Below are positions 183 to 63,012 of a DNA stretch of 64,000 nt, piece after piece. Location: assembly GCA_963930775.1 (NCBI GenBank), contig OZ005689.1, positions 3,472,001 through 3,536,000 of the forward strand, given 5' to 3'. Source of the DNA: Cliona cf. orientalis. Its lineage: Eukaryota; Porifera; Demospongiae; Clionaida; Clionaidae. Position 1 is the first letter of the stretch. The number at the start of each line of letters is the position of its first letter. A program made the position numbers and the translations under genes. The notes beneath the pieces were generated by a model. The model ran no database searches, was not told the origin of the DNA, and saw nothing but the letters and a program-made list of their open reading frames with translations.

Positions 183-3100
183 ATGAAGGCAAGTATAGAG
201 ACCATTGATTGTGATACAATTAACTATATATAGGCTCTGCATTCTTTAATCAATCAATCCATCAGCTTTATAGCAGTAACTATTTAAATTTAAATGCATA
301 TGTAGGATGGAATATTACTGATTGGAGTTCTAGTTGCTGGATACCTATGTCAAAATATTGGTAAGAAACTTTGTCAAACATACACAATCTATAGAATCTA
401 TAATAATATTATTATTAGCTATTGATATTCGATCATGTTAGGAGCAGAGAATAATATGTTGACTGTCACCAGTGGGTGCGCTTGCCCTGGCCAAAACATT
501 ACACTGAAGTGTATCGTAACGTCCACATCTGGAGGGAGTAGCACTGTGTGGAGGGGAAGCTTCTTCGACTGTCCAAGCGAGAACAATGAGATCACCTTTC
601 GTCACAGTCGGTTCGTACCAGGTGCTATGGAAACGTGCACAGATGGATCCATTGTGGGTCAGAGTCTGAGCAGTGATAATGACAGCTTTACTTCACAACT
701 CAGTGTTAGAGTGAGCCCTGGAATAGTTGGACAAAATCTCAACTGTGAGCACGATGATGGATCAGCCATACTTCCTGTTGGATCGGTAAAAATGTCTGCA
801 GGTATAGGTACACTAAATAAGTACAGTTACAGTACAAGGCTGTGAAATGTGACCAACTGCGAGAAAAGGGATCCGGACCATTTGGGACTTTGCGTTTGTC
901 GTATGTAGCTTGTACTGGTATGCATAGAGTATACATGTAACTGATGTATATTCCGCTAGATAAAAATTTGGATTTCATGCATGTAGGAAATGTGTAGGAT
1001 AGGGCAAAATTTTCTACATGTTTAATATTAATTTTATCAAGTTTACAAAAACTCTGGCCTATCCTCTGCCAAACATGTATCGGAAAGCTCATGTATTGGT
1101 AAGCACAACGTAAAGGAAATCTTACATTTGGTCCTTAATTCTGTAAGTGTATCTGCTCTTTGCTGGTGCCAATACGCTGATACAAGTATACTCAGTACTA
1201 CATTAATTTTGTAGAAAGCAAGTTGAACATTGTCATGACAAAAATTAATCTTGTTTCACACTAACATGAATGGTCCCTTTCTCGTAGCACCGGGTCACAA
1301 AATTTAATAGCTATAAACAGGACAGTCACTCGGCTTATAATAATAATACCGGTATAATATTATAGCTGTAGTAGCACTTCTTTCCTGGACCAGTTGTTTT
1401 AATTAAGCTGCACAATTATTACAATACCGTATATATAGCCGGAAAATTTGGCGGTTTGGCGGTCTATATTACAACCGCCAAATTAAAATCCGCCAAAATT
1501 TCCTACTCGCATATATACGTATGGCGATCCCGTACCGAACCGCCAAATTTATATCCGCCAGTATTCTTGTAATAGCGATTTTGGGCTCAACCGCCAAATT
1601 TAATGCCCGCCAATATTTCGATCCGGCTATACGGTATCAAATGGCCAAAGGTGTAGGATTGTCCTATACAGTATCATAATTATTACATTACAGCTGCTCT
1701 TCCTCCTGCTACTAACATCAGTTATGCATTGACCAGGATTGAACAATCAGTGACACTCACATTCTCGTGGACCATTTCGGTGTTAGGATGCCATGATGTG
1801 ATTTTCAATATCCAAGCATCAAACTGTGGCAGCTGCCCAACTACTACCAGATACACTAATGTTACTTGTATGGACATACCAACTGATGGTAGCATGTGTA
1901 CGTTTGCTGTGCACACAGTTGTCTGTGGAAACACTACTGGGAATACTAGAATCATGTTGCCATTACTGGATGACCGTGGCTTCTCAAACACCACAGGCGT
2001 GAGTAATTTCCAACATGTACATTGTACACATGCATGTGAATGCTATAAATGCTTGCACATAATATTACATTAGTTCCCAAGTTGGCACTTCAGGAATATC
2101 CGGCCCATCCACACTCTTTAATATTCTTAAGCCTTTCTTGTTGGTTTTGCCACTGGTACTATACTACCGTATAGCGGGAAACCTACGAGGGAGAAAACTT
2201 TCACAAATTTTGCGATTTTCAACCATCCGCAAAAGTTTTCTCCACGAAATTCTAGGCATGCCACACCCATCATGCGACCAGTTTTAGCATTCCGCGAAAG
2301 TTTTCTCCGCAAACTGCTCCTTTCCTACCAATCCGCGAAAGTTTCTCCCTCGAAATTTTCCCGCTATACAGTATAATATTATAGTATACGACTGCTTCAA
2401 AAGTCTTACATCACTAGCTACATTTTGCCACAGATATCACTACCAAGTAGTGACGTTCACTATTCATTTTTTTACAGTGATATAATTATATATTCTCAAG
2501 CTGGGGCATATAATATAATTAAGGTGCTTGTGTAGCAACAAATAATACATACATACACCGTCACATAGCTGTAGCATTATTATATTAAAGCGCTATTATA
2601 TGGAGATAGCCACCAATTTCATCAGTGCCCATATTACTATTAATAATAATTGCGATCTCAATCATATACCATTACTATTCAGGATTGTTCAGTGCATATT
2701 GCCTCCATCATTGTGCTGGGAATTCTGTTGATTGCGTGTCTCACAGCCAGTTTAACTGTGATAGCTCTCCTGGTTAAAGCAAAGCTCAAGGTCCAGGCAG
2801 AGCTGATGGCAGCCAACACAGCACTTAATTAATGTAATGAATGATCAGATAAAATCAAGCCGACTAGATGTGAAGCAGAGTGATATTGATACCAGTGGAA
2901 ATGTTGCTTATTCAAAATCAAGTGGATTATTGTTAAAGAAAGTTGATGTTGACACTAAGGATAATGTTGCGTACTCAAGATCGGATGAACTACCTGTGAC
3001 TCTGGCACAACGAGAAGTTAAAACCAAGGATAATGTTGCTTACTCAAGATCGGACGAACTAACCATGAAGCAAAGAGAAGTTAAAACTAAGGATAATGTT

Positions 3101-3196
3101 GCTTACTCAAGATCGGACGAACTTAGTATAACCATGAAGCAAAGAGAAGTTAAAACTAAGGATAATGTTGCTTATGGCTTACATACTATTGGCTAG
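183..3196 (+). CDS. R1: Ig-like/FN3-like transmembrane receptor with NxxY-repeat tail
   Basis: Predicted exons are 183-188, 306-360, 442-801, 1694-1998, 2683-2790 and 2849-3196 (393 aa). The first coding exon is only ATG AAG, followed by a GC-AG intron (AAG|GCAAGT). Exon 2 supplies a hydrophobic signal peptide (ILLIGVLVAGYLC). Exon 3 is an Ig-like domain (CACPG near its start, several further Cys). Exon 4 is an FN3-like domain with SNCGSCP and NVTC. Exon 5 is a membrane helix (about aa 246-270). The tail carries five NVAY motifs, four followed by serine and the last in DNVAYG, spaced by a repeated S-x-EL unit; NxxY is the consensus read by PTB domains. Exons 5 and 6 lie in different frames. 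I joined them with a 58-nt intron (GTCCAG...TCAG) whose donor is weak, so a frameshift is the alternative. Partners are unknown. Confidence 0.7.
1427..1634. mobile_element. Inverted-repeat MITE, CCGTATA-type ends
   Basis: Lies in the long intron of R1. The ends are inverted copies of CCGTATA...AGCCGG, flanked by TA on both sides. The interior repeats the motif CCGCCAAATT in both orientations. There is no coding capacity. The same family begins again at the right edge of the window (63976). Confidence 0.75.
2167..2371. mobile_element. Inverted-repeat MITE, CCGTATAGCGGG-type ends
   Basis: In the R1 intron before the membrane exon. Terminal inverted repeats CCGTATAGCGGG / CCCGCTATACAG (one change) have TA on each side. 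The interior repeats GCGAAAGTTTTCTCC-like words on both strands. It shares its outermost bases with the element at 61775-62336. Confidence 0.7.
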
Positions 3197-4715: not shown

Positions 4716-4727
4716 TCTCCCCTTTTT
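4716..4727 (-). promoter_or_regulatory. Polypurine tract of the Ty3/Gypsy element
   Basis: On the minus strand the twelve bases before the 3' LTR read AAAAAGGGGAGA. This is the expected position for the second-strand primer in an LTR element. Confidence 0.85.
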
Positions 4728-4921: not shown

Positions 4922-6234
4922 TTAGGATCTGGGTGTTTCCAACTGTTGCGACACAGTGCCAGGAGATTGGTTACCTTGAGTAGAGACCCACACTGGTGTA
5001 CCTTCTGGTAGCTCAATAGCAGTATGTGTGTGGTGTCTCTGATCGTAATTTCTCTTTTGTTGCAGTTTGTGCTGCTTGTCTTTCTCTCTGAAATCTTTCA
5101 GGTGAGGCCAATCGGGAGTGAGATACTTCTTTATTTGTGGTACATCTGTACGAATGCGTCTCCCCATAAGGAGTTCCGCTGGACTCAATCCACACCACGG
5201 AAGCGGCGTTGCTCGGTAACTTAGCAATGCTAGGTATGGGTCGTCAGTGTCAGAGATTAGCTTCTTTACGGTTTTCACCGTCCTCTCTGCCAAGCTATTG
5301 GACTGTGGGTAGTGTGGACTGCTGGTTACAAGAGTGAAGCAATATCTCTCTGCAAATTCCTTCATCTCTTGCGAAGCAAACTGTGGTCCATTATCGCTCA
5401 TGAACTCGACTGGTATGCCGTGACAGGAAAATATCCCTTTCAACGCAGAGATAACTCCAGCAGATGTAGTTGAGGTCAGCTTCTGTATTTCCATGTATCT
5501 GGAGTAATAATCCACCACTACCAGGTATGTAGAATCTTTCAGCTGAAATAAATCGGCACCAACTTTCTCCTATAGGTGACTTGGTAGAGCTGACTGTAAC
5601 ATTGGTTCTACTGGGGGTGGTGTGTTCTTCATGCACGTAGGACATCTTCTGACAAAGCTTTCCACCTGCTTAGACACTCCTGGCCACCACACCGAGGATG
5701 AAACTCGAAGTCGACATCTCTGAATTCCTCGGTGTCCATGGTGTATTTTCATTAGGATCTCATACTGAAGACTCTCTGGTACAACGACTCTCGTACCGTG
5801 CAGTAGTAGGTCATCAGCTACTGAAAGCTTGTCTTTCTCTCCCCAGTATTTCTTCAGAATTCCCTTGATTGCATGTCTCGCTGGCCACCCATTCTGTGTA
5901 AATCCAATGACCTTTGAGCAAATAGGATCGTCTTTCTGCGCCTCTCGAAACTGTTGCATTCTCTTTTTGCTTGCTGGTAGCTGTTCCACAAGTGAATCGA
6001 CGAATCTCTCAACGTCCTCATCTCCCTCACATACGCCTTCGACTGACTTGATGGGAGCACGTGAAAGTGTATCGGCGGTGTACAAATACATCCCGGGGAC
6101 GTGAGCGATGGAATAGTTAAATCTCGTGAGGCGTAGTCGAAATCTCAATACTCTTGGTGGCAACCTATCCAGTTGCGTTGCTCCCAGTAGAGGTACCAAG
6201 GGTTTGTGGTCGGTTTCGATTTGGATGTGCTTGC
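4922..6234 (-). pseudogene. RNase H end and integrase of the Ty3/Gypsy element, interrupted
   Basis: In the second frame the RNase H tail (DTLSRAP) is followed by the integrase zinc-binding region (HHGHRG ... CPTCMK). An in-frame TAG at 5570-5572 interrupts the link to the core. The core shows the D,D,E triad in context: VVDYYSRY, SDNGPQF and SLAERTVK. The C-terminal part (GTPVWV) ends at 4922, about 195 bp before the polypurine tract. Integrase would insert the DNA copy; here it cannot be made as one chain. Confidence 0.88.
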
Positions 6235-7014
6235 CGAGACATAGTCAGCAAACTTCTCACATGCCCAAACAAGAGCAAGGGCCTCTTTCTCGATCTGCGA
6301 GTAACGTTTTTCGGTCTCGGTCATAGATTTGGAGGCATATGCGATTGGTTTCCACTCCTCTCTCTCGTGACTCTGCAAGAGGACGGCCCCCAGTCCATAT
6401 GTGGACGCATCAGCTCGGATCTTCATCTTTGCGTTTGGATCATACAAGGCGAGCACTGTAGGTCTTGTTAACTCCTCCTTCACCTTCTTGAATGCCTCCT
6501 CCTGCGCTGGTCCCCATAACCATGCTTTCCTGGGACTCAGAAGTTCACGCAGGGGTTGTGAACACTCAGCTAGGTTGGGGCTGAACTTTCCTAGCTGGTT
6601 AACCATGCCCATGAACCTTCTTAGTTCCTTCAGGTTCTTTGGTGCCTCCATTTCAACAATGGCTCTCGTCTTCTCGGGATCGGATGATACGCCTTCTTTT
6701 CCTACCACTTGGCCCAAAAAGGTAAGCGACTCCTTGCTAAATTCACATTTCTCTTTGTTGAGGGTGCCCCCGGCTGACTCAATCTTCTTCAGAACGGCGT
6801 ATAATCTGGCATCATGCTCCTCCTGAGTCTTGCCATACACGAGAACGTCATCTACGTGCACCATTGCACCTTCAAGGCCGGCAAGAGTCTCAACTATTCG
6901 ACGCTGAAAGTGTTCTGGCGCGCTGTTAATCCCGAACAGTAGCTTGTTGAATCGAAATCTGCCGAATGGTGTGATGAATATAGTCAAATCACGCGAGCTT
7001 TCTTCCAGGGGTAC
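6235..7014 (-). pseudogene. Reverse transcriptase and RNase H segment of the Ty3/Gypsy element
   Basis: Same frame as the upstream Gag-Pol segment, resuming after the TAG at 7015-7017. It contains the catalytic VHVDDVLVYG segment (polymerase motif C, xxDD), then an RNase H domain with RADAS and the segment around IEKEALALVWACEKF. Near 6235-6245 the homologous reading moves to another frame, which breaks RNase H. Without read-through the product would be severed from Gag and integrase. Confidence 0.88.
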
Positions 7015-8598
7015 CTACCAAAATCCAGAATTACAGTCTAGCTTACTGAACACTGTAGCTCCAGCTAGTTTGCTCAGGTTCTCCTCCACTGTTGGAAGGG
7101 GGTGGACTTCTCTCAAAACATTTTCATTAAGTGCACGGTAGTCAACACATATACGGATGGCGCCCGATTTCTTGGGGACGACAACCATCCCCGCACACCA
7201 GGTTGATGGTTTCTCTACTTTGGAAATTACCCCCAGAGACTCCATCCTCGCCAGTTCTTTCTGGACCTTCTCTCGTAGCGGGAAGGGGACGTTCCGTGGG
7301 GTGTACAATGCAAAAGGCTGTGCATCAGGCTTTAGCTCGATCTTGTATTCCCCCTTTAGGGTTCCTAGGCCAGTAAACAAAGATGGGTACTGTTCCAATA
7401 TGGTTTTCTGGATGGTCTCTACTTTTGCAAGCATTTTCAGGGCTTTGATTGCAGGCAGTCCCAACAGGTTATTCTGTATACCCTTTACCACATACACCGT
7501 CTGCTCAGCTGATCTGTTACTGTACATTAGACATGCAGTGAAGTCACACGTTACATCGAGTGGAGTTTTGTTAGCTGTTACGAGACATTTGGTAGTGCTT
7601 CTCCTTTCCAACTTGGAATCTCGGGTTAGGCGGTTCATCGTTTCTTCTGTAATTACCGAAACCTCTGCCCCAGTGTCCACTTTGAAAATTACAGTCTGTC
7701 CATTTACCGATAGGGACTCGTTCCATGAAGTACTACCATTCTCATCGCTGACTGCATCCAGAAAGGAAGCGTCATCCAATTCCGTAGTGTAGTCTTCGGC
7801 AACCTCAGAAACTTTGGAGAAACACTGTGACTTGTAGTGTCCTTTCTTCTTGCAGTTGTGGCAGGTCGCTTCCCTGGCTGGGCAATGCTGTCTGGAGTGT
7901 GGTCCCTTGCCACACCTAGTACACTTATTGCGGGTTGTAGAACGGTGCCCTGCTGTCTCTGTGGTCTTGTTACTTGGCTTTGTTTTCTTATTGGATTTCT
8001 GGGGGCGCACACCTGCCCCTCGGTTGCCGATCGCCTCCACAGGTAAGCCCTCTCCTTGAAACCCGCTCTTCAGCTGTACCTGCTGCTCTCGTACTGCTTC
8101 TCTCTGCCTGACCATCGTTTTTGCTGACTCCAGCGTAAGGTCGGCGTCCAACTGTAGCTTTTGCAACATGGCTTCGTCTCGGATGCCAACGACTATCCGG
8201 TCGCGTATCATTTCGTCTCGAAGATCGCCGTATTCACAGTTCTCGCTCAGCTGGTAGAGGCACGTTATGAACTGCTCTACCAACTCGTCTTGCTTTTGAC
8301 ATCTCCGATTAAACCTGGCTCTCTCAAAAATCACATTTTTTCTGACTTGAAAAAATGAGTCAAATTTCGCGATCACCTTGTCATAGTCTTTCTGGTCGCT
8401 CTCGGAGATTTTCGTTGACAGCAGTGTGTCCTCTGCTTCCTCTCCCATCGTGTAGAGGAGCATAGTAACTTGTCGTTGTTTGGTCTCTGTGGAGAGACCC
8501 GATGCTTGGCGGAACTGCTCGAATCTCCTCTTCCACTTCTGCCATTCGTCTGGTTGGTGGAAGGGAAACGGTAAGGGTGGTTTTAGCTGAACAGCCAT
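7015..8598 (-). CDS. Gag, protease and N-terminal reverse transcriptase of the Ty3/Gypsy element
   Basis: Open frame of 527 codons. Residues 1-180 are a capsid-like Gag region. Two zinc knuckles follow at about 226-259: CTRCGKGPHSRQHC (CX2CX4HX4C) and CHNCKKKGHYKSQC. The aspartic protease motif DTGAE lies near residue 308, and the start of the reverse transcriptase follows (CVDYRALN and the FSKLD segment). Gag and Pol share one frame with no shift between them. The frame ends at an in-frame TAG (7015-7017) inside the reverse transcriptase; the same frame continues below. The capsid would package the RNA and the protease would cut the polyprotein. Confidence 0.92.
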   Translation of the reverse strand: MAVQLKPPLPFPFHQPDEWQKWKRRFEQFRQASGLSTETKQRQVTMLLYTMGEEAEDTLLSTKISESDQKDYDKVIAKFDSFFQVRKNVIFERARFNRRCQKQDELVEQFITCLYQLSENCEYGDLRDEMIRDRIVVGIRDEAMLQKLQLDADLTLESAKTMVRQREAVREQQVQLKSGFQGEGLPVEAIGNRGAGVRPQKSNKKTKPSNKTTETAGHRSTTRNKCTRCGKGPHSRQHCPAREATCHNCKKKGHYKSQCFSKVSEVAEDYTTELDDASFLDAVSDENGSTSWNESLSVNGQTVIFKVDTGAEVSVITEETMNRLTRDSKLERRSTTKCLVTANKTPLDVTCDFTACLMYSNRSAEQTVYVVKGIQNNLLGLPAIKALKMLAKVETIQKTILEQYPSLFTGLGTLKGEYKIELKPDAQPFALYTPRNVPFPLREKVQKELARMESLGVISKVEKPSTWCAGMVVVPKKSGAIRICVDYRALNENVLREVHPLPTVEENLSKLAGATVFSKLDCNSGFW

Positions 8599-8614
8599 AG
8601 TTGCTGCTTTACCA

Positions 8615-8629
8615 CCACTCCTGACACCA
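8615..8629 (-). promoter_or_regulatory. Primer-binding site complementary to tRNA-Leu(CAA) 3' end
   Basis: The minus-strand sequence directly after the 5' LTR reads TGGTGTCAGGAGTGG. This is the complement of a tRNA 3' end ...CCACTCCTGACACCA. From family knowledge, that acceptor end fits animal tRNA-Leu(CAA), whose 5' end begins GTCAGGA. There is no gap between LTR and site. Confidence 0.85.
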
Positions 8630-8815
8630 TGTAATATACTTTACTTGTAAGAATGATAATGATTCAAGGAATAAAACGTCGACGGGTACACACACAATAT
8701 ATTGCATACATTAAAAGGAAGTGACATCACAATACATCATAATAATAAACACGCATGCGCAATAGATAGTTAAATACAGTACACAGTTATAGTTGATAGA
8801 ATACATTATTCCACA
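8630..8815 (-). repeat. 5' LTR of the Ty3/Gypsy element
   Basis: Upstream LTR in the sense of transcription (minus strand). It is 186 bp, terminates TG...CA, and differs from the other LTR at two positions (the CGACGGGTAC and AATAAACAC segments). It is immediately followed on the minus strand by the tRNA primer-binding site. Confidence 0.93.
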
Positions 8816-12690: not shown

Positions 12691-15600
12691 TTAATAGCAA
12701 TTTACCTTATAAAGGACACAAGTTGGTTCTTTCAAGTGTTTCTCATCAGACTCCAAGTTCTCAACAAATACTTTATAGCCCTTAAACAATTTTCTCAAGC
12801 TTGTCATTTTATCACTGAAGTTTCGATTTTGTTTTATGGTGGAGATATTCGAGGCAAAGAATAATTTACCTATTATCTACATGATTATAACAAACCATAA
12901 CGTCTTTTATTATACAGTAGCATTATTATTACCTCATGTAAGAAAGTAATATTTCTTTGTTCAGGTATATCTTCAAGTTCACCTTCAAATAAACAGAAAG
13001 ATCTGCCAACACATATCTTCAATTCAGAGTTTACTTCTTTGGTAAGCTCCTTAAGCTCATAGTCCTTATAGACGTCAATTAATTTGATATCATCAACTGG
13101 AACCTCCTGTAGTTGAAACCGTTCAACTATTTTGTCTGCTTCTGGTGCTTGAGTCCTCCTGAATTCTCCATTTTGCTTAATCTCTTTCCATGCATCATGA
13201 TCAGATGCAGTCACTAGATAAATGTCATTAATAAAAATTTTATGTGACACCATGTGATGTGACTAAAGCATATAGAGTCAGCACCCATAACTGTGTGTAT
13301 AAGGACCATACAGTTACACTGTGACTGTGGAGGGGTGTATCTGCTGCATTAGAAACAATACCTAGTAAGTGATCTCTATGGTTGTAATATTAGCTACTCA
13401 CAATTATAATTATTATGATCTATTCATCTCACAACGTCTGCCCTTTTATAGCTCTGCATGAATGCAAAGGCTTTAGCATAGAATGTCCGTGATAAAAACA
13501 AGATTTGAGCAAAGTAAGCCCCCCCTCCCCCAGTCTCGTTTGTCCTGAGGTCAAATTCTTTCCACTACTATTAAATATCCCATAATAGATATATATAGTC
13601 AACCATAATTTTCCACAAGACTGCATGATGTACATTGTAATCAAGCTAGATTTAATTATGGAATTGAGCACGCCTCTGGATATATTATGAGGGTTAACCT
13701 ATTGCCATAAATACCTGGCTTCAAGCACATAGTTTTCAGAGCGTGCATCTATTGCCGGGTAAGCGCCACTATACTGCAATTGAAGGAATCAATGTAACCA
13801 TCTTCTATATACAAATGAAACTTAAATCCTCTAATACAAAAGTATGCTGTGAACACAGTAAAACCTAGAGCTCACCAGGGCATATACATCTATCCTATAT
13901 ACACACATTGTACTGTATCTAAGAGATGTGAGCTGAAGCATGCCATCGATCTGTCGACGATCGACCTTCACCTCCACATTGTGATAGGTTATGCACATGA
14001 GCAGAAGCATGTGGCCTGCAATGGGTATTGTTGATAGGCGTGGCCAATAATACATAGTGTTTGCGATGCTAATGAATCTTGCCGATTTTGACAGATTTGT
14101 TGTGCTATGAGTCATTAAGATTGTTCATTATTGAGTCAACACCATTTCAAGGTCATAATTTGCACTAGTGCATGAATTATAGAACCTATATGGCTGCATA
14201 GACCTTGTACATGAATCTTAAAAGTAGACAAAATAGCACTGAAATATAAGTTTACATAATTGTTAATGGCAAGTTCTTGGTTGATTCAACATCAATACCA
14301 CTTACATGGTAGTGATTCTGTAAATGGTATTCTCTTGTGTTTCACCATAACAATACGTCGTCGAACTATTACCACCATTATTGTGATGATAAACACCATA
14401 ATCACTCCAATAACAACAACAACACTGATACCAATAGCGGCCCTTGTATTGGCATTACCTGCATATAACATGATCATTATCACGTAAACATAATTATTAC
14501 AATCAGGTTGTACATGCATGTATGGTAACAAGAAGTATCGTAGTGTCCCAGGCAAGTGCCCACTCCCAGGTAACGTCCATGTACCCCATTTCAAGGGGTC
14601 AATGTAGCAGCTTCTATACAAATGTATGGAATTTTGATTCTGGGTAAGCGCCTATGTGGGCCAAAATCACGAGTTATGCTTAAGTGCCCATGGGAACTTA
14701 CCCGGGATACTACGGTATTAGCTATCAAATAGGAGTAGCCAGAACTCAAACTCCCAATCTTCAGATTCTAGTAAGATCAGGAAGAATGTATATGTATTTG
14801 AAACACGTGCCTACTTCCGAAAAACACACACATATGGTACCGTAAAGTCTGGTTAATAAGCGCATGCGCTTATCACTCTGGGTGGTAAGGAAACATGCGC
14901 CTATTAGACGATGTGCACTTAATAGAGAGTGAAGTTTTGGCCCCGCCCACTGCCAGCATGTTCGAGCGCTCAGTCACAAAGCTAGCAAGTTATGAACACA
15001 GCGATTCTTGGAGTAAGCTCTGTAACAGTTCATGGAAGTATGATCGGAAGCCATCGCTGGAAGATAACCGTGGAAAAATAGCCGATTTCTTTGGCGAGAC
15101 TCGCTTTGGTCAAAGTCAAGAGTTTGAACCCGTCTCAGTGGAACATCGCAGTGTTGAGTATAGTCAATCTCGTTCAGCTGGCTATCCGAAAATGGGTTGG
15201 AAAATTAGTTCTAGCCATGTAAAACATGGAACACTCTTGATCGAACGGCGAATACCGCTGCCGTTTTATTGGGCGCATGCGCTTATTAGACAGTACTTAA
15301 TAACAGGAAGGAAGCATGCGCTTATTAAATAATATGTGCTTAATAAGCATGTGCGCTTATTAACCAGACTTTACGGTATTTCAACATGATCTCATTTAAA
15401 CACTATGCGCATGCATGCATGAGGCCACCATGCAGGTGTTAAAATTAACTATAGAGCTCTGCACAGCACATACTTCTGCACTTGAAGCTATCTTTTGGCC
15501 AAAATTTGAGTACTTCATTGCGCTTACGAGTTGCTTAGATACCTAGCTACATCTTGAGATAATATTACGGCAATTTTCATGCCCAATGACAATGATATGC

Positions 15601-18600
15601 ATGTGGGATAATAACATCTTGGAGTTTAATGACTAAGCGTGAACAGAAAGGGTTTTCTATGTGAAGAATATACATCAATGGTTTTTCTTTAATAGTATGA
15701 GCTCACTCGGATACAGTCACACAGGTGTTCCAACTACACTGGTGCTTGACATGAAATTGCAATTGCTATGATTACAGCAAGAAGCAGAATCTACTACTAT
15801 GATGATGACTCCAACAATATCTTCTCCTGAATTAAGCTGTATAGCTAAATGCAGCCCAAAAATAATATTATAATACCGTAGAAACTGGTTGTTAAGCACA
15901 TGCGCTTATAACACGCGGCAGCAAGAAAATATGCGCTTAATAAAAAGTATGCGCTTAAAAAAGTGCTAAAACACGGTAGGTGGGGCGTGCGTAAAGAACA
16001 TGTCGAGGGTAGAAAGGCCTACAGTGATCGCCAAGGAGCGACCAGAGAGCGTAATTCTCGACGTTTTCTTCCCCAGCCTACTTCTAGCCTTCTTTCTGGG
16101 CTCGTGTAACCAATCGCTCGTCGTTCAGGTGGCTTGCTGGGCATGTGCGCCTAACAAAGAACGGTGAAGCTCGCACAAAACTATGCGCTTAACAGTGAGC
16201 AGCGCTTAACAACCAGTTTCTACGGTATTAGCTATAAGTGTCCACTGTCATCAGCTTGTTTTGTTTCTCATGCTTGAAGTTGCATGTATGACGTAAAGGA
16301 TACTGACACAGGTCAAGAAGAGTACACGCTGATTATGGCACAGGTCAAACTTTGTTAAGCGCATAGACGTTCACTCATGGACAGTCTGCTCATGGATCGG
16401 TAGTATAACTCAGTCTTTATCTTGGAGATAATCTTGCCCTGCCTTGGTCCAATAACTTTTACTATTGAACTGCACCCTGTTTACATGTACCAAACCAGTT
16501 CAAACTGAACCACGTTTACATGCATGCGTTTGACCCGAGTTAAGATATTCATGGTGCACGTAATCCACTTCTAATCCATATCAGGATGTGGGTTACAACC
16601 TGGGTTAACTAATTCAGTTTACAAGTGGGTCAGCATGTAACGTCGATTCTGACCCGAGTTAAGCATTACATGTAAATGGGGCTTTATAGAGTGAAGCTAA
16701 ATAAACTCACTATGTGATAAGAATTCTAGTGTATACCACTTTGGAACACACAGTATAATATTACAGATCTTTCATTAGTTTTCATGCAACATAATAACAT
16801 GGGCTTCTTTTGTGCCATGCAGCAGATATTGACACAGTAGTGACGTAAAGCACAAGGGCCATAGCACTTGAACAACTTAGTCTAATATTTACATGATACA
16901 GTGGAACCTGCCTTAGCGGTCACCTGGACAAGGTGGTCACCTCCTTAATGCAGCCATATCCTCTAGGTCCCAAACAGCCACAATGCATTTTCTATAGAAT
17001 ACAACCTGGATAAGATGGCCACCTGCCTATTGCTTATACCGGCCAGTCCCATGGCGTTTACACTAGTACAAATTAGCCTGCCTATAGTGGCCACTGTAGG
17101 ACAGCCCCCAGGGAAACCTCACTTGGCTGCCAGGTACAATTTGTGGGTTTGTTAGACCACCTGCTAATCGCACTTGCAGGCATTCCCAGCACTCCTACAC
17201 TGCTCTATTGCAGCCCATAGTTACGTTCGCAACCTCACTTCTCCTACAAGCCACACCCCCCATTTTTTGCATATTGCAGCCACCTCTCTAATGCAGCCAC
17301 AGATATTTGGCCCAATGGTGACAGCTTTAGACAGGTTCTACTGTAATACCGTTAATATTTCTAGAGGTCTAATTTTCACAGCTTTTGCGGAAAAAATGAT
17401 GCCAAAAAGCATGGTTGTACAGTGTACATAACGTGATAACACTTGTCTGCAAACATTAAACCACAAAAACTTTGAAGACTAGCCATCCATGAAAATTAAC
17501 CCCATGAGCTTTATGGTAATCACAGTAATTACCAGTCATTTGCACATCTCCAGATTATGCATTACACATACAATGCTTGCAAAACAGTTTATATTCATTA
17601 TAACATTAATCTTCTTTCATGCACCATTATGTGCCCTAAGTTTACCTGTACCCACTGATGTTCTGACCTCCACAGTGACTCTGAAGCTATTACTGCTAGC
17701 TGTGACTAAGAAGCAATCTGAATCTCCAGTCGCCACACTCAATGGAATAGTATTAGGAGCCTCCACAGTACTATTCTGTCCAGGACTGGAGGCTAGAATC
17801 TGATCACACTGTTGAAAAAAACATGACTTAATGGATAGATCCCTCTCATCCAGAAAGTTACAAGTGATGGTTGACGTAGCTGAGTCATATTCCACATGTA
17901 CAAATTCATTGGTACATCCTATGTGATATATATTATGGGAAAACATATATATAAGCACCAGAAATCATAGCATTGGGGGATGCTATACAAAAGTGTCAGC
18001 ACGCTCTGAGCTCAAGACAAGGTACGTGCATTGCCAATCCCTTTTGTGAGATACAATATCACAGCATATTGATTAAAATTTAATACCTATAGTCATAGGA
18101 TCGGTGGCTGGTCCTCGTCCAAGCCTACTTGATGCAGAGAGAGTCACATCAATTTCAGCCGATGGAGGGCAAGTAATATCAATTGAACGCTGACACTCGT
18201 CCTCGCTCTCTTGGCAAGCAGCTATGTTCATGTTTTCATTAGAATAGGAGAAGCTGTAGCCAACAACAGGACTGGGGCCATCACCTGCTATGCTCAAGAA
18301 TGGCTGCAGTGTGTATGCAAAGGTATAACATATCATACTTAATAAATAATTGTACACCCACCTCTGGATATATAGTGATTATCACTTTAGTTAATGTTGA
18401 AGATGATCCAGGAGAGTACACGGGTATTATGTCCACTCGTGGACCTGTAAATGAAATCTACAATCATGTACATGTACATGTACATGACATAGAACAGAAT
18501 GTGTAAATTTAATATGATACTTACGTCTTAGTGTCACAGTGATTACATTATTCACGGCTACAGTTTCCATTTGTCCACAAATTTCACTATAAATGCTGAA

Positions 18601-19021
18601 AGAACATAATAATATAGTAGCTATTGGTAGATTAGAGCAGGTGGCTCCATTCCTTCTGGTTGTACATCTGACACTACTACAATTTGAAGTAACATTATAG
18701 CCAATTGATTCTGAGCAGAGGGAGTTCACTTCAGTCCAGCTGATTGTTATTTCTGTCATATTCACACTTAACACCTGGAATCCACTAAGTTCTGGTAGAT
18801 AATCAGATGCTGAAACAAAAACCATGTTATGTATAACAATAATAATTATTATACTACATTCATACCTTATGGAGGTGGCATATTAATTTCTTAGGGTAGT
18901 TAGTATAATAATAATAAATTAAATTAAATTTGAAGGCAGAAGCAAAGTGGGCTAACCCACAAAATTTTAATGTTGACTTAGCCCCCCGAATCTTGAAAAC
19001 ATGTTTAAAAATTAATGTGTT

Positions 19022-19056
<35 letters not shown>

Positions 19057-42949: not shown

Positions 42950-44411
42950 CTATAGACCATAACGTACATCATGCTTCCCTGAAAGTCTAAAGTGCTCCTC
43001 AGAATACATTGCTGATATGCTTGCCCTACTTGACACCTCTAAGTCGTCAGGCCCTGATGATGTATCGTCATTGATGCTAAGATCTACCGCACACAGCATT
43101 GCTCCAAGCCTTGCAAACTTGTTTAACACCTCACTAGCTGAAGGATTGCTGCCATCTGAATGGAAAGTTGCAAGGGTGGTCCCCGTTCCAAAATCAGCTG
43201 CTCTGAAGGATTCTGTGTCCAGATATAGACCAATCTCAATTCTTCCTACTGTTAGCAAGATCCTTGAGCGCCACGTCAGTGAAATCATTCTCAATCACAT
43301 CTGTGAAGCCTACCCAATCTCAGACCGTCAGTGGGGATTCATGCACCAACGCTCCTCCACTTCTGCTCTGACATCTGTCATATAATATGACTGGCTCTCT
43401 GCTCTCGATAATGGTCAAGAGGTGTGTGTTATTCTTTGATGTGCAAAAGGCATTTATATTAAATCAGTCCCTCATTTGCCTCTGTTGCAAAAGCTCGAAC
43501 AAATCGGCATCAACCCCTACATTTTGAGATGGGTACGTAACTACCTAACGGAGAGAGAACAGTTTGTAGTAGTTGAGGGGTCGCACTCTCCTACACTTAA
43601 GGTATTATCTGGAGTCCCTCTAGGTTCTGTTCTCGGCCCCTTACTGTTTGTTATCTACATTAATGATGTCGCTAATTGCATCTCTGGAGGAAGTAAGATC
43701 AATCTTTTTGCTGATGACATTGCGCTTTACAGAATTATTACCAGCCATGACGATTATTCAGTATTCCAATCTGATGTTAACTCTATCGACTCTTGTTTAT
43801 CTGCCAAACACCTTACCTCCTCTTGTACCACATTGCTCAAACTGTACATTTCTTTCATCAGGCCTCATGTTGAGTATGCTGCAGCAGCTTGGGATCCCTT
43901 TCTTAGGAAAGACATTGACCTCATAGAAGATGTCCAAAAGTATGCCCTTAAAGTCTGCTTAAAATCTTGGAGTGTCAACTACAGTGAGCTATTGGAGCGA
44001 TCACATCTTCCTACCTTGCAGGTCAGAAGGCATGAAGCTAAACTTTGCCATCTTTATAAAATTGTGAACAAAGAAACTTTTTTCCCTAATGCTCCAACCT
44101 TAACAAGAACGCTATCATACCCCAGTCGTTCAGTTCACTCGAAAGCTCTCATTCCCATACATGCACATTCGTCACAATTCTTGCACTCCTTCCCAAGTGC
44201 CATATCTGCATGGAACTCGCTACCCTTAGATACTGCCTCTGCCTCAACTATCTACTCCTTTAAGACTGCCATAAAACACTAACTCATTCACTACAGCTAA
44301 TCATTGTTATTATTTTCTTTGGTTGCATGCCCGTAATAGCTATTAGCTAATTCACGTAATCCCTGCATTACCCTGCAGAAATTTCATAAATAAAAAATCA
44401 TAAATAAAAAG
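42950..44411 (+). mobile_element. Non-LTR retrotransposon, 5'-truncated, internally deleted
   Basis: Reverse-transcriptase motifs run in order: SSGPDD, YRPISILP and YPISDRQWGF in one frame (43017-43385), then DVQKAF after a frame change, GVPLGSVLGPLLF, and the catalytic FADDIALY. After about 43830 the expected thumb region is missing, and the conserved C-terminal segment (YISFIRPHVEYAAAAWDPF) follows directly, ending in a stop at 44280-44282. A short AT-rich 3' tail with two CATAAATAAAAA-like units ends the element. The order fits the CR1/Jockey/L2 side of the non-LTR tree (family knowledge). Inactive. Confidence 0.85.
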
Positions 44412-49992: not shown

Positions 49993-50760
49993 ATGAAGTC
50001 ATCACCAGATTTTGTTCGGTTGAGCTTTATTTATTTGCTCCAAACCTTCAAGTGCATGCAGGGTAAGTGTGGTTCTACAAGAATCATAATGCAATAATTA
50101 TCACAGTCATTCATATTGTTAGGTACACATCCACCACCAAGTAATCTTCATATCAGTACTGCTAATTTTCTCTCAAGACAACTAACTTTCAGCTGGAGTC
50201 CAGTTGCTTCCGACTGTCATGCTATCCATTACAACATCCTAGCATCAAACTGTGGCAGCTGCCCCACTACCACCAACCACACCAATGTCACCTGTAGTGA
50301 CATTCCAAGCAATGGAAGCACATGTGCATTTGCTGTACAGTCTATGGTTTGTGGGAATATCCTGGGAAATTTTAGTGACTTGATCAGTGTGACCACAATG
50401 AATGGAGATGAAACTAGCATGATCCCAGCTAATGCTAATACTACTGGGAAAGATCAAATTTATATCATGACCACACAACACACTCCATATACACATGTAG
50501 TCATTTACTCTGCCCCAGCCAGCTCGGAAAAGAAGACATTTATCTCATCAATACTGCTAGCAACTCTTTTTGTTATATTGGTGACTATCTCTACTCTAAT
50601 AATTGTTGTACTGATGTGCAAAATAAAGCACAAGCAAGTGACACTAAATCAAGGGTTACCCAGTCCAAATTTATCGCCCAATGTGGAATTGAACACAGTA
50701 ATAGACATTTCCGATAATGTAGCTTATGGTATGTGTACAAGAGGTAGACGCTACTTATGA
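49993..50760 (+). CDS. R5: short receptor, one FN3-like domain, membrane helix, NxxY tail
   Basis: Exon 1 49993-50062 encodes a signal peptide (FVRLSFIYLLQTF) ending CAG G|GTAAGT. Exon 2 50123-50760 holds everything else (235 aa in total). Its FN3-like domain (aa 24 to about 120) has SNCGSCP, NVTC and MVCGN. A linker follows, then a membrane helix at about aa 178-202 (VILVTISTLIIVVLMC) and a tail with DNVAYG, the same motif that ends the R1 tail. No Ig-like exon is present. A strong donor (TTATG|GTATGT) after NVAYG could extend the gene to an exon I did not find; otherwise it stops at 50758. Exon 1 and its upstream DNA are close copies of those of R6. Confidence 0.75.
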
Positions 50761-56161: not shown

Positions 56162-57083
56162 CCACGTTTGACCAGGGTGCATTGCTCAACCATGCATGTA
56201 GCCATGATGCAGATGGCAATCGACAACAAAGTCAGCCACTTCAACTGCACTGTACATGGTGCTGTACTAGTACATGTAGCTATCATTACTAGTACTAGTA
56301 GATTGATGCTCTAATTAATTATAATGTGCTTTTACCACACCCACTCATATCATTTGTCCACACCCACTAATTTATATTTTTTTCCTGATTTCTTATAAAA
56401 ATGGACCCACCGGATCCGTGAAACATGAAATCAAATTGGTGTGGCCTTATTATGTGTAGCGTAAGGAATAATCTAAAATTATTTTGATAAAAAAAGACAT
56501 CTGGAAAAGTGCATGTAGCTAGCTACAAAATTAAATACTAAACTATTAATAATAATTGCTAGATCTGGCTTATTTTCCACTATCTACGGTTCAGTGCATG
56601 TAGCTATGCATGAAAATAATATTGCATGATCTTGTCATGTCCTGAGCATGCATGCATGCATGCACTGGAATAAAAAAACTACCATTAAAGTGTATGTATG
56701 TATGACTGTCCCAACAAAAACTGTCAACTGATTAGCTTTACTGTCGATACATAGGAAAAGAAAACATTACTTTCAGAGAAAGTAAACTGACTTATCAGTT
56801 GTCAACTGCATGTGTATAATTATTACTGTAACATAGCACGCCTATGACGCCACTAAGTCTTCTCAAAACACACCACAATACTTCGAAATTTATGTTGTAT
56901 GTTATACATAGTGCATTATATAGAGTAGTTGGGAAAAAAGTTTATGATAGCGACTCATATTACGTACCACTTTCAATTTCCTACAAACAGTTTTACTGCA
57001 TGGGCTAGAAATCACATCAAGAAGTCAGCCAGCTTAATCATAAAGAACCAGTATAGCTAGCTTGTCAACCACATTTCCTACAG

Positions 57084-60000
57084 ATGAAGTTATCGCCAAA
57101 TTTTGTTCTGTTGAGTTTTATTTATTTGCTCCAAACCTTCAAGTGCATGCAGGGTAAGTGTGGTTCTACAAGAATCATAAAATATTACTACCATTATGCT
57201 ACTACAATATTCTATAGGTGTAACTGGAATACCTGAGCAATCAAAGTTGGTACTAACAAAGGGATGTGCCTGTCCTGGTGGCACATTAACTTATGAATGT
57301 TCTATTGTGGGTGATCAGGGAGGAGCCACCATTTGGTTTGGAAGTGCTTTCAACTGTGCAAGTAATGAATCTGTTCTATTTCATAGTCGTTTCACAGACT
57401 CAGGAACGCTAGATGAGTGTAACAATGGAGCTATAGTGGTGCGAAGTCTCTCTGCTAATGGCAATATCTACACTTCACAACTCAATGTCACAGTCACACC
57501 TGGTATAGCTGGAAAGACTATCATGTGCATTCATGATCCCTTGACTGGTCAATGCCAAACTCAAACCAATCGGAGACTGAGTGTTCCATTATCCATAGTA
57601 GTTCCAGCAGGTAATTACTACTCAAACTATTACTGTTATGGCTCTGAAGTGGGCTTTACAAAGCGATTGAGAATGTGTATAACGACTGTATTTTAAATAT
57701 CCTGATAATTATCACAATCTTTATTATTAGGCACATATGCACCACCTAGGAATCTTTACATCAGTACTGCTAACTTTCTCTCAAGACAACTAACTTTCAA
57801 CTGGAATGCAGTGGCCCCTGATTGTCCTGCGGTTAGTTACAACATCCAAGCATCAAACTGTGGCAGCTGCCCTGCCACCACCAACTATACCAATGTAACT
57901 TGTACTGACATACCGACTGATGGTAGCAAATGTACTTTTGCTATACGTACCGTGGTCTGTGGGAATATCATTGGAAAATTAAGCGAAGTAATGAACATAA
58001 CTCCTGCAGTAGATATGCATATTAATCATAATGGTAAATATTCAGTAGTATATTACCCAGTATGTGTTTATTATAATGATAATATTATTATTCAGGCACT
58101 GTAGATTCATTTTCCACTCTAGTTGCTGGAGGAATACTGATATCTATTGCTCTGGTGCTCATATTTGGATGCATCATATTTGAAGTTATCAAGCGATCAA
58201 AGATATGTCAAAGATCACAGTATGTCATTGACTTAACTATAATTATTACAAGTATAGACAATTGAATAAAATTGAAGGATGAAGTAGGGATATGGCAGAG
58301 TCAAAAAGTACACAAACAAGATTTGTAAGGGATAACACTGGTGTAAGAAGCATGGGTGCATCGGATGCTGGTGCATCCATGAAATTTTACTATTATGAAT
58401 ACCATAATCAAGACAGCAGTCTTGATAATCCAATAGTCTCGTGAACCACACCCTCCTACTTCCGTAGCGCTGGCATCATGTCACGTATCACCAGCATGTG
58501 GAGAGGTGACGCAATACATCCAGTGCTGCGGAAGTAGGAGGGTGTGATTCACGAGACTAAGTATAATTATGTTGTAGTAGCTACATAACATGCATTAAAG
58601 ATAATGCCCCACTGCTGAGCAACATCATGACTTGATATCAAACTTAATTGTGATTTGATATCAAATTATTCTGCCATCAGAGGTGGGGCTGCATGTTGTT
58701 TGTGGTGGACATATGCACATCATGAAATGGAAAGCTTCTGGAAGTTCAGTTATGGCCTGCCTGTGGGTCTAATATTACTACAAGTATAAAAACAATTGAA
58801 GAATGAAGTAGGGATAGCAGGATCAAAAAGTACACAAACAAGAGATACATGTAATCGTATCTACTATATATCCCTATACCCTTGTTTTTCTCGACTATTA
58901 TGCACCTATTAATGTCGATAATATTATTACGTTTGTTGAGTGCGGTAAGTGGGGTTGTTCCCTAGTTGTCATAATGGTTCGAGTTTATCAGTTTTGATTC
59001 AATCACATTATTACTGGTTATTTTGTACCCCTCAAAAAGCAAGTGTAATATTATATAGTAGATACTAGTCTCGCTAGCCACACCCTTCAATCTCAAGAGA
59101 AAGAGGGTCTGGTGACCATGCGTATAGCTAGTTGTTCCGTCGGAATGCAATAATTACAAAAGATGTCACGGGTAACCGCAAATAACGCGAGGCCAACTGC
59201 ATTGCGCACGCGCCGTCAGTAAAGCGTTGCCAAGCAATAAATTCAAATCTCGAATCTGATTGGACGCGACCAAATCCTGTCGCCAGAATAACTCGTTGTA
59301 TGCATGGTCACCAGACCCCCCTTTCCCTCGGATTGTGGGGTGTGGCTTGCGAGACTAAGTAGATACAATTATCTCTTGTTTGTGTACTTTTTGATCCTGT
59401 CATCCCTACTTTATTCTTCAGTTGTTTTTATACTTGTGCCCCCCACTGCCCCCCCCCCCCCCTTCCTATGCCTATATGCTAAAGTGAGCAATCCAGTCTT
59501 GAGTTAGCCCTGGAAATAAGAAAGAAAGAAAGACTGAGAAATGGCCATTATATTTTTTGAACATTTGGTTCTGGCTACAATTGATTTGATGAATGATCTT
59601 GGTATTATTATATATATACTTTAGATCCTACTTGTAATAAATATAGTGATCTGATTAGTTATACTGTAGTATCTATCCTTCATAAAATACCTTGTAAGCC
59701 CCATAAAAAAACCTTGTAAGCTCCATAAAAAACCTTGTAAATTTTGTTTGCCTATGGCTAGTTTATTGCTAGGCAATTGTTTATTTACAAAGCCTTTGGG
59801 CATTGTTGCTAGGATCTAAATTAGTTAGACACTGTTTAGGAGGTTTCTACGTGATTTAGAAGAACTCAGGGCTCAGTAGAACCCTCGCTTCGCTCGGGAT
59901 TCTACACAGAGCCCTTCTGTCTTCTAAATCACGTAGAAACCTCCTAAACAGTGTCTAACTATTATTTAGACAACAAAAAAATTATTATTTTTCAGAAGAT

Positions 60001-63000
60001 TATTATAGTCCGTGTCATTACATGAGGGCATGGATACACAGTGTAACGCTACAACTGCCGGAAGTCCATACGTTTATCGGAATTTTATGGTTTGTACAGT
60101 ATGTAAGCTTATGGGAGATAATGATATGCGCAAACCGCGCCTGCATACTAAATTAGTGTCAACTTTTATGTAACTCTACCAACTTTTCTGTTCATCCAAG
60201 AAGGCTGTTCTTGAGCTCAAAATGTAGCTCGAAGGTAGTACTAAACGATGGTATACATTTCAAGGCCATCAGATGGCAAACAACCGAGCTAACAGCGCTT
60301 GAGGCATACCACCTCTCACTGTATATGGGTATGGTTTTAAGTGGTACATTTTAGTAACAGTAAAGCTTAGGCTTACCGGCTTTAACCTGGCATAGAACCC
60401 TTGAACTATTTGTACAACAATCGAGAATGATTTTGCTCGAGTACCTTCAGAGTTACAGAGACATCAACATCGAAGATAATACGTACAATTCAACAGCGCG
60501 TAACTTTTGTCCAGAATGTTGCAATTTTGTCTAGTAAACGACAAATAGAAGCTCTACCATAGCGCTAGCTACTACCCAACTCGAAAGACTCCAGCTCTAG
60601 TAACAAAACTTCTGTGGCCTTCGCAGTATAGCCACTATCTCGATCGCTTGTGTCTGAGGTCAACTTCAAAAGTGGTACATTTCAGTAACAGACATCCCCA
60701 GACTCTCAAACTCGAGATTTACAATCCTTCCATATAGCTCCTTTAGAAGCCTTGGAATGGAACCAGTACCTACTATAAGTATGGAGAACCAAGGCCCTAA
60801 AATCTCAAAAAATGAAGCCTAGCTAGATGCTGATCAGTAGCACGGTCCTAGTGTTGCATAGATTACAGACTTTGTGGGCGCAAACACGGAGTATTGGTCA
60901 ACCACACGGTCATGGCCCCACTAGATAATGATATTCACGATGCCAGGTGTGCTGTAAACCACTACTATGCATCCTCTTCCGCTTTTCAGATAAAATTGCA
61001 GTTGTATATAGCGTACACTGGATGCATCTTGGATGCACCCGGTTGCTATGAACGCGCGGCGCGGGCGGAGAGAAGTCCACACTACAAGGCTCGATCAGGA
61101 TTGGTCAGAACTGTAGGGCCGTGTGCACAAAGAAGAGTGGCATTAATGCCTCGGGCCATAGAGACGCATTGTCGAACGATCGGCGCGAAAGCGCTGCGCG
61201 TTTCGAGAAGCCTGCTAAGCAGGCGCTGGCACTAGCCACCGAGCCTCGAGTAAAGCGAGAGGCGAGGTCTGTTCTTTGTCATACCTGTCAGTAGTCCGGT
61301 AGCAACGTTCGAGCAGAGTGAGAACATCGCCATTGAAGGAGCCAGAGTAGTTGCTTGCTATGAGGGGTGTGGCCTTCGCAACCGCTTCAATCTGCGCATG
61401 CGCACGCGCACGGTACTATCTTGCCCCGACAGGATACTGCTTGTGCATGAACTACATCTCTATGTTTTGTGAGCATGTACTGTTAATAGATGATCATGCA
61501 TGCTAGCCACATTATCCCATGATTGTGACATTAAACATACTTGTTAGCTAGATAGATAATTTGCTGTCTATAGATTTTGATTTTCATACTTAGAAATTTC
61601 ACAAAGTTAGCTACCTATTTTGAGATATTTGAGTACCGCATTTCTTCTTGTAATGTATTACTTATACGGCATATCCACGTCATCCCTACATAATTATAGA
61701 GTCTACCGACTCTATGATAATGATCACATGCAAATCAAAACAAGGCATTGTTCATAATTCAATGTTTGGGAATACTGTATAGCGGGTAAATTTGGCGAAT
61801 CACTCCCTTAAAGATATTGGCGAATTTTAAATTTGGCGACTTGACAAATTGTGAACGCAAGCGCATGACGCGATAAACAAGTGACGTAATGCATGGATCA
61901 GCTGGCCGGCCGGCCACTCCATTCGCCGAGCTAGCTAGCAGCTGTCAAAAAATTTAATAGAGACGTGTCAGATCGAGAGTTGTGTTCGAGGCCACCATAG
62001 CTATTTACAAGAACATTTGGAGCCCATCTGTTGGAGAAGAGTTAGATTGCAGGTGTGAGCCAACAATACCGAGGATCCATATGCTGTCGGTGTAGTACGT
62101 AGAAGCACTGTGGTTGGCCGCGTCCCCCGAAAGATATCGGCTGCATGTTCACTTTTCTTGAATCAATCTAATTTGCTGAATTCGCACTGCTCTCGTTCAC
62201 ATGCGCATGCGCACACGTAGTCATTACGTCATAAAAATACGTTATGTAAATATTGGCGAGTTTTAATTTGGCGATTTTCTTCAAAATTCGCCAAATTGCC
62301 AAATTAAAAACCTCGCCAAAGTTTCCCGCTATACGGTATCTTAGTTAGGCATGGCATAATACAATAATAATGCACTTTTATGGTGTCTATTATGTTTCAG
62401 AAGCAGCCACTTAGAACGAAATAATGACCAAAATACTGAGGTAACATTAGCTATATAATAGCTAGATGAAAATCACTTTTATCACAGCAAGAAAGACTTG
62501 AGTGCACAAGAGTTCCATGGCTTGTTCACTGAGAGTTTCCAAATTTGGGAAATGAGCTCAGTGTGCAAGCTTGGACACTCAGGAAATTAATGTTATCTTT
62601 CATTTGTGGTTGCTTGTAAACTGAGTTCATTCCCAAATTTGGAAACTGCTTGGAAACAACAAGTGAACAAGGAGTGTAACGCTTGTGCACTGCAGTCATT
62701 CATACAGTTTATTTTGTACCGCAGATGGATAACCATTTTGAGAGAACTCACCTTGATTTGAATAGCCTGTTACACAGACTTTCTGGCAAGATACCCGATT
62801 CTCAGTGGTACCAGTTTGGGCTGACTATTGGGGTATCGAAGCGGATTCTCAATCAACTAGAGCACTATCCAGCAGAAAGCCGCCTTGCTGAATTACTCGA
62901 CTATTGGCTTAAACATCATCAAACAGGTCAACCAACATGGAAAGAAATAACAAATGCTTGTCAAAAGATCAGTGAGCTAGACAGTAAGCCTGAATATAGT

Positions 63001-63012
63001 AAGTTGAAGTAA
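57084..63012 (+). CDS. R6: Ig-like/FN3-like receptor with a cytoplasmic Death domain
   Basis: Exons: 57084-57153, 57218-57610, 57731-58033, 58096-58219, 62401-62440 and 62725-63012 (405 aa, phases 1, 1, 1, 2, 0). Signal peptide (FVLLSFIYLLQTF); Ig-like domain (CACPGG, TIWFGSAFNC, CNNGAIV, YTSQLNV); FN3-like domain (SNCGSCP, NVTC, VVCGN); membrane helix at about aa 262-287 (GGILISIALVLIFGC) followed by KRSK; a 13-residue linker exon; then a Death domain at about aa 318-395 with the family's W..FGLTIGVS, LLDYWLKHH and PTWKEITNACQKI pattern. Death domains bind other Death domains in apoptosis and NF-kB signalling (family knowledge). The 4.2-kb intron before the linker carries five or more repeats, so the link rests on matching phases, not transcripts. 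A polyadenylation signal AATAAA lies at 63122-63127. Confidence 0.72.
58265..58345 (-). repeat. Dispersed 80-100-bp repeat, one of four copies
   Basis: Word order on the minus strand: ATCCCTTACAAATCTTGTTT, GTGTACTTTTTGATC, CATCCCTACTTCATCC. Other copies lie at about 42630-42720 (+), 58785-58860 (-) and 59360-59440 (+). No target duplication determined. Confidence 0.7.
58434..58559. mobile_element. 126-bp MITE with TAGTCTCGTG ends, in an R6 intron
   Basis: Almost entirely two inverted arms (TAGTCTCGTGAACCACACCC and its reverse, continuing TCCTACTTCCG). No matching 9-bp flanks, unlike its relatives. Confidence 0.75.
59066..59357. mobile_element. MULE-like MITE, TAGTCTCGCTAGCCACACCC ends, perfect 9-bp duplication
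   Basis: Ends TAGTCTCGCTAGCCACACCC / GTGTGGCTTGCGAGACTA. Direct repeats AGTAGATAC at 59057-59065 and 59358-59366. Arms include AGAGGGTCTGGTGACCATGC. Lies in the R6 intron. Confidence 0.85.
59821..59961. repeat. Near-perfect 141-bp hairpin in an R6 intron
   Basis: Arms of about 45 bp (TTAGTTAGACACTGTTTAGG and TTTCTACGTGATTTAGAAGA inside) with an exact inverse after a short spacer containing a second small stem (CCCTCGCTTCGCTCGGG). It would form a strong RNA hairpin on either strand. Confidence 0.85.
59962..61774. other. Part of the R6 long intron with no recognised element
   Basis: The phrase AGTGGTACATTTxAGTAACAG occurs twice (near 60340 and 60671). A 113-codon frame at 60894-61235 has no domain. 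Nothing else supported. Confidence 0.35.
61775..62336. mobile_element. Inverted-repeat MITE, CTGTATAGCGGG/CCCGCTATACGG ends
   Basis: TA|CTGTATAGCGGG at the left, CCCGCTATACGG|TA at the right. The interior repeats TTTGGCGA-type words in both orientations. It lies about 65 bp upstream of the linker exon of R6 and in the same intron. Confidence 0.75.
62501..62691. mobile_element. Inverted-repeat MITE between the last two exons of R6
   Basis: Ends AGTGCACAAG and CTTGTGCACT, with inner inverted blocks GAGTTTCCAAATTTGGG / CCCAAATTTGGAAACT. It makes up most of the 284-bp intron. Confidence 0.7.

Follow-up and report, generated by a model that had tools for sequence, protein, structure and literature searches.

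The window, a stretch of 64,000 nucleotides from the genome of the demosponge Cliona cf. orientalis (C1:3472001-3536000), contains six loci, R1 to R6, that are predicted to encode single-pass surface receptors with related ectodomains and different cytoplasmic tails. We followed these genes through the 149 contigs (216.8 Mb) of the genome. A sequence-only reading of the window had proposed that all six loci share an Ig/FN3 ectodomain. FN3-type exons are indeed present in all six, and Ig-type exons in R1, R2, R4 and R6; the proposal fails for R5, which has no Ig exon, and is weakened by a frameshift in the R3 Ig exon and an interruption of a further extracellular exon (GCTN) in R4.

The FN3 core around the motif SNCGSCP is very conserved. 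The 20-mer GCATCAAACTGTGGCAGCTG, said to be kept in R1, R3, R5 and R6, has exact matches in these loci at 1816, 26861, 50242 and 57850 and none in 100 shuffles. SNCGSCP occurs in the same four loci; R2 has SNCSSVRC and R4 has SNCSTCP in its place. The tails differ as had been described, with NxxY motifs in R1 and R5 and an A/B module in R2 and R4. A Death domain is present behind R6 (62725-63012), although the join to it spans more than 4 kb and is unproven; the exon phases agree.

Exons of the six loci

By sequence, the genes are made of short exons that encode a signal peptide, a single Ig domain of V type, a single FN3 domain, a transmembrane segment and a tail. The R1 signal-peptide and transmembrane exons, the R4 transmembrane exon and the R6 linker exon given below were read from the sequence. 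R1 (plus strand) has signal-peptide exons at 183-188 and 306-360, of which the first intron would be GC-AG, an Ig-type exon with GCACPG and phase 1-1 borders (442-801), an FN3-type exon with SNCGSCP (1694-1998) and a transmembrane exon (2683-2790). A predicted 58-nt GT-AG intron (2791-2848) leads to the cytoplasmic tail (2849-3196), which contains DNVAYSRSDEL repeats and ends in DNVAYG. In R5 (plus strand) a signal-peptide exon (49993-50062) is followed by a single exon (50123-50760) that encodes the FN3 domain with SNCGSCP, the transmembrane segment and a short tail with DNVAYG. R3 (plus strand) retains an Ig-type exon with CVCPG (26128-26461), an FN3-type exon with SNCGSCP (26742-27029) and a transmembrane exon (27116-27200). 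It is likely a pseudogene because the frame of the Ig exon changes near 26330; the match of this exon to the hidden Markov model ends at position 64 of 91.

R2 and R4 have the same order of exons: Ig, FN3, two FN3-like exons, the GCTN exon, the transmembrane exon and A/B units. On the minus strand, R2 contains an Ig-type exon with CACPG (20831-21190, approximate borders), the divergent FN3-type exon (18524-18810), two exons at about 18450-18080 that resemble the second FN3-like domain of R4, the GCTN extracellular exon (17645-17920), a transmembrane exon (14307-14457) and one cytoplasmic A/B unit (12706-13214; A about 13214-12932, B about 12875-12706). Two inverted tRNA-Ser(AGA) genes lie between its Ig and FN3 exons, at 19943-20017 (minus) and 20355-20429 (plus). 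R4 (plus strand) contains an Ig-type exon with CACPG (32599-32964), an FN3-type exon (33072-33341), a second domain in two exons (33654-33733 and 33801-34041) that is FN3-like by appearance only, the GCTN exon (34342-35357) and a transmembrane exon (35575-35735, approximate borders). Its A/B module (35782-38908, approximate borders) has three tandem units: A1 at 35782-36007 and B1 at about 36079-36249, A2/B2 at about 37950-38367, and A3/B3 at about 38461-38908. The element that splits the GCTN exon (34450-35215) resembles a miniature inverted-repeat transposable element, with 240-nt inverted arms that are 87% complementary; a minisatellite rich in GC forms its core, with several open frames.

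R6 (plus strand) encodes a signal exon (57084-57153), an Ig exon (57218-57610), an FN3-type exon with SNCGSCP (57731-58033) and a transmembrane exon that ends in phase 2 (58096-58219). A candidate linker exon (62401-62440, phase 2 to 0) would connect these to the Death domain exon (62725-62983, open reading frame to 63012). An alignment of R5 with R6 leaps from 57180 to 57705 and so skips the Ig exon that R5 lacks.

Two other elements in the window were recognized by the appearance of their open reading frames: a gag-pol-like long terminal repeat retroelement at 4922-8640 (minus) and a reverse transcriptase of the long interspersed nuclear element type at 42963-44282 (plus).

Domain identity and copy number

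Residues C27, W39 and C103 of the Ig exon are invariant in four window exons, and C27 and C103 are invariant in an alignment of 19 rows. The AlphaFold model has the beta-sandwich of an Ig fold and, together with Foldseek, supports a V-type domain with low confidence. Several results speak against this assignment. The model was built from four sequences, has a predicted local distance difference test score of 66 and gave no Foldseek hit at E<=0.001; none of the 19 members matched a Pfam Ig model at E<=1; and a profile of the 19 rows gave four weak PDB matches, two of them not Ig. We describe the domain as Ig-type by fold and not by Pfam because no member matches the Pfam Ig models. The structural matches of the model name T-cell receptor entries only, and the domain may belong to another Ig class. 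The second exon was assigned to FN3 by fold and profile (AlphaFold and Foldseek), with matches that include cytokine receptors and sDscam; its Pfam fn3 scores of 12.4 and 13.1 bits are below the cut-off of 25.

The genome holds at least 150 copies of each exon. Among the best 150 of 372 Ig candidates, 122 are on C1, of which 78 lie at 2.74-3.02 Mb, every one in minus orientation, and 30 at 3.02-3.90 Mb, the stretch in which the window sits. For FN3 exons (best 150 of 340 candidates) the numbers are 141 on C1, with 87 at 2.74-3.02 Mb, again all minus, and 39 at 3.02-3.90 Mb. The description of the window as part of a receptor cluster is thus largely right and understates the scale.

Within 200 kb of the dense array we found 54 Ig and FN3 exon pairs no more than 800 bp apart; with R4 and R6 these make a set of 56 genes. 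The 800-bp limit reduced the pairs from 59 to 56 and removed wrong long-range pairings, such as that of the Ig exon at 2866168 with the FN3 exon of a neighbour. R2 was dropped by this limit, and R1, R3 and R5 are outside the set as they have no full-length Ig and FN3 pair inside 800 bp. The array also contains a recent segmental duplicate (C1 2802775-2805698 and 2932638-2935561), in which each of two neighbouring genes has at least 99.6% identity to its counterpart in the Ig and the FN3 exon alike.

Tails behind the ectodomain

The earlier reading had suggested a genome-wide search for the ectodomain exons and a tabulation of the tails that follow them. Three types recur behind the ectodomain at several loci: tails with tyrosine motifs, tails with a Death domain, in many cases with a PxxP/YE exon behind it, and tandem A/B units. 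The 200 kb of dense array yielded only the first type.

N[VIA]AY was found in the frame of the FN3 exon in 44 of 54 array genes, or 44 of the 47 in which the tail frame reaches 85 amino acids or more. These tails were picked by NxAY, which fixes N, A and Y by selection, and only the free positions are informative: D or E stands at -4 in 44/44, T at -6 in 39 and G at +1 in 41. A YExx-type tyrosine, sometimes YEDI- or YENI-like, precedes NxAY, with a gap of 17, 20 or 21 residues in 47/56 cases and of 17-22 in 52/56, so that the recurrent motif is YExx...DN[VI]AYG. This is not an immunoreceptor tyrosine-based activation motif (ITAM; two YxxL/I at short spacing), as the second tyrosine is in N[VI]AYGHT and its +3 residue is most commonly T (28 of 44 tails), then I (6), A (3) and V (2). 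No kinase tails were found among the matches listed: of 155 kinase matches 27 were checked, and none of these has a listed ectodomain exon inside 100 kb. On C1 the listed tyrosine-kinase matches are confined to 0.97 and 11.1 Mb, and none of them falls in the stretch from 2.7 to 4.7 Mb. C7 (1.89-2.14 Mb) and C9 (1.56-1.62 Mb) carry domains of the tyrosine-kinase type in tandem, in long open frames.

The R6 Death domain scores 24.3 bits against a gathering score of 22.6 for Pfam PF00531; a PDB sequence search gave no match at E<=1. Genome-wide we listed 127 Death domains (E<=1e-3, from the best 150 of 264 candidates) and measured their distance from the ectodomain exons start to start, among the matches listed. 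Eleven begin no more than 2 kb downstream of an ectodomain exon on the same strand, compared with controls of four that have the ectodomain exon downstream instead and none on the opposite strand. For 111 of the 127 no listed ectodomain exon is within 8 kb upstream, and therefore most of those listed may belong to other genes, although the comparison covers the best 150 ectodomain exons of each type. The order Ig, FN3, transmembrane segment, Death domain is found at L041, L042, L043 and in two genes of L044 (contig C2), and also at L033, where the FN3 exon is interrupted by other sequence and the Ig exon is truncated at the locus start. At all five loci the Death domain begins about 0.7-1.5 kb behind a family ectodomain exon on the same strand. 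In L033, L042, L043 and the first of the L044 genes an exon with PxxP and YE motifs comes last; L041 showed no such exon, and the other gene of L044 extends past the locus end. About 42 of the 127 Death domains are at about 11.0-13.9 Mb of C2 with no listed Ig or FN3 exon nearby and are possibly another receptor family. Others are in open frames of about 800-960 amino acids (C2 2.95-3.00, C3 11.07 and C18 6.25-6.48 Mb) and are NLR-like by size only.

The A and B parts of the third tail are encoded by separate exons. The A module has 25 matches in the genome; for 13 of them (three in one C16 locus) a listed ectodomain exon lies no more than 5 kb upstream, versus 1 and 3 in the control arrangements. 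Ten of the 25, including three on C5 and one on C8, have no listed ectodomain exon inside 8 kb. The three C5 copies are at 1013841-1015883 with no listed Ig or FN3 exon nearby, and the module may therefore serve other genes. The A/B module gave no PDB match (best E 1.1; 0.72 for the R2 A exon) and no Pfam family near its cut-off.

Elsewhere in the genome, a gene on C12 resembles silicateins, which are known from sponges; it has five exon matches, 73-84% identical to a silicatein sequence, and the active site CGASYAF. The corresponding site of a cathepsin-like gene in this genome is CGSCWAF. By this gene, too, the host is most likely a demosponge.

Exchange, alternatives and likely role

As judged by sequence comparison, R6 is a mosaic gene. 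Its 5′ cassette (56691-57616), which comprises upstream DNA, the signal exon, an intron and the Ig exon, is 84.7% identical over 937 columns to C1:2830708-2829831 (minus), a gene with a tyrosine tail, and reaches 90.6% over 626 columns at 56999-57616. The likeness stops at the Ig/FN3 intron; the FN3 exons are 78% identical over 207 nt, which is family background, and the FN3, transmembrane and downstream exons of R6 do not match the partner. R6 groups with this gene in the Ig tree (100/99), and in the FN3 tree the partner groups with five others, without R6 (99/94). The mosaic is independent of the unproven join of R6 to the Death domain, because the R6 transmembrane exon also differs. R5 and R6 are alike over about 500 bp upstream (75-78%) and in FN3 (80%, near family background), with no match in transmembrane segment or tail. 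Among the 56 genes, 7 of 36 pairs with Ig at least 90% identical have FN3 at or below 80%, and 7 of 52 pairs with FN3 at least 90% identical have Ig at or below 80%. In the Ig tree the Death-domain label requires at least three changes on well-supported branches.

The hand-read borders of ectodomain exons are mostly phase 1. In 52 genes scanned heuristically (the other 4 of the 56 have Ig and FN3 in one frame and were excluded), the best-scoring donor after Ig is in phase 1 in 44/51 and the best acceptor before FN3 in 36/52. Such symmetrical exons could therefore be exchanged without breaking the frame.

We consider that these genes are probably a demosponge multigene family of modular single-pass surface receptors, in which an Ig recognition domain is coupled to different outputs. 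The ligand of the Ig domain would sit on other cells, which may be self or foreign. Phosphorylated tyrosine tails would recruit SH2- and PTB-type adaptors, Death-domain tails would assemble death-domain adaptors, and A/B tails would engage some further partner. Tandem duplication, with exchange near the Ig/FN3 intron and at the FN3/transmembrane junction, may have coupled one recognition domain to different outputs over evolutionary time.

Other results weigh against parts of this proposal, in which the ligand and the signalling steps are ones that we infer. Among the window loci, R3 and R4 appear damaged and R5 lacks the Ig domain; R1 requires a 58-nt intron and R6 an intron of 4.2 kb. NxAY is missing from the FN3-exon frame in ten of the 54 array genes, which may be either broken or spliced onward. 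We found neither a Death domain nor an A/B exon in the 200 kb of dense array, and therefore tails are not freely exchanged; exchange looks occasional. The FN3 tree is compatible with a single origin of Death-domain tails, and both trees rest on few columns with long branches. Pairwise dN/dS (nonsynonymous to synonymous rates; pairs with dS of 0.03-0.4, which are not independent) gave no sign of pervasive positive selection. The median is 0.50 for Ig (125 pairs, one above 1), 0.39 for FN3 (148 pairs, none above 1) and 0.45 for the transmembrane segment and tail (126 pairs of 45 genes, one above 1), so constraint is no stronger on the tail than on the ectodomain. The pattern is one of constraint, not pervasive positive selection. 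Of the earlier description as rapidly evolving, what stands is an apparently high copy number and an apparently high level of recombination; almost every close pair has a dN/dS below 1.

The apparent exchange of tails may instead be conversion of ectodomain parts onto resident tails, an explanation that we take seriously but lean against. It suits the R6 block, which runs from upstream DNA to Ig only and stops at the Ig/FN3 intron, and the discordant pairs in both directions; R5 and R6, alike upstream and in FN3 and not in transmembrane segment and tail, fit 3′ replacement too, and the outcome of the two processes is the same. The Death domain at 62725 might also belong to a gene of its own further downstream, leaving R6 without such a tail; this is suggested by the 4.2-kb gap between the transmembrane and candidate linker exons (4.2-4.5 kb to linker and Death domain) and by an in-frame ATG as first codon of the Death domain exon. 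We think it unlikely given the agreeing phases of the three R6 exons and the five loci with a Death domain close behind the ectodomain on the same strand. A cluster of largely decaying pseudogenes would explain the R3 frameshift, the R4 insertion, the stops inside some exon matches and the array genes that lack NxAY; it is very improbable, with NxAY kept in 44 of 47 genes with a long tail frame and dN/dS of about 0.4-0.5 in Ig, FN3 and tail.

It is also conceivable, though rather doubtful, that these are ordinary adhesion or cytokine-type receptors that were tandemly expanded and have no self/non-self role, as Ig plus FN3 resembles many developmental receptors. The mostly low dN/dS, the FN3 matches to cytokine receptors and sDscam and the very conserved core at SNCGSCP agree with this. 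What does not agree is that each exon has 150 or more copies and that the family includes near-identical duplicates, mosaic genes and a variety of tails, all unusual among developmental receptors. The family may have an immune or allorecognition function. Recognition of non-self, whether microbes or conspecific tissue, seems the most likely role of the family and would fit the copy number and recombination.

In the Hydractinia Alr family, duplicated single-pass receptors lie in clusters and have unusual V-like Ig domains and tail tyrosine motifs. The sponge genes appear similar in each of these respects, but they are Ig-FN3 genes with Death-domain and A/B tails and no canonical ITAM pairs, known here from one assembly. 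Vertebrate KIR/LILR and fish NITR are tandem Ig receptors in which, as in the sponge cluster, similar ectodomains are joined to different signalling tails; the sponge genes differ in the membrane-proximal FN3 and in tails of YExx/NxxY, Death domain or A/B type. Class I cytokine receptors have an Ig plus FN3 ectodomain, and p75NTR/UNC5-type receptors are single-pass with an intracellular Death domain. The sponge family combines both features, but its ectodomain likeness is below family thresholds and several Death-domain loci add the PxxP/YE exon. Among sponge proteins, the Geodia cydonium receptors RTK and SAM also have Ig-like ectodomains; the family described here differs in its ectodomain of one Ig plus FN3, and no tyrosine kinase is among the matches listed at C1 2.7-4.7 Mb. 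The sponge aggregation factor cluster and NLR family are, like this one, large families with a proposed role in self/non-self or microbe recognition. The genes described here differ in being single-pass Ig-FN3 receptors, and 18 window open reading frames have none of the Pfam domains of those families except the Death domain.

More tentatively, this may be a sponge non-self recognition locus in which upstream-signal-Ig cassettes are exchanged among germline genes and a V-type Ig domain is connected to phosphotyrosine, Death-domain and undescribed A/B outputs, an early-animal parallel to the leukocyte receptor and Alr complexes. To our knowledge, which receptors sponges use to reject foreign tissue is not settled. 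A megabase-scale V-type Ig cluster with several outputs would provide loci and exons for genotyping in fusion and rejection assays, and it bears on exon exchange as a builder of immune-receptor clusters in early animals. The family is a good candidate for how a sponge may tell friend from foe.

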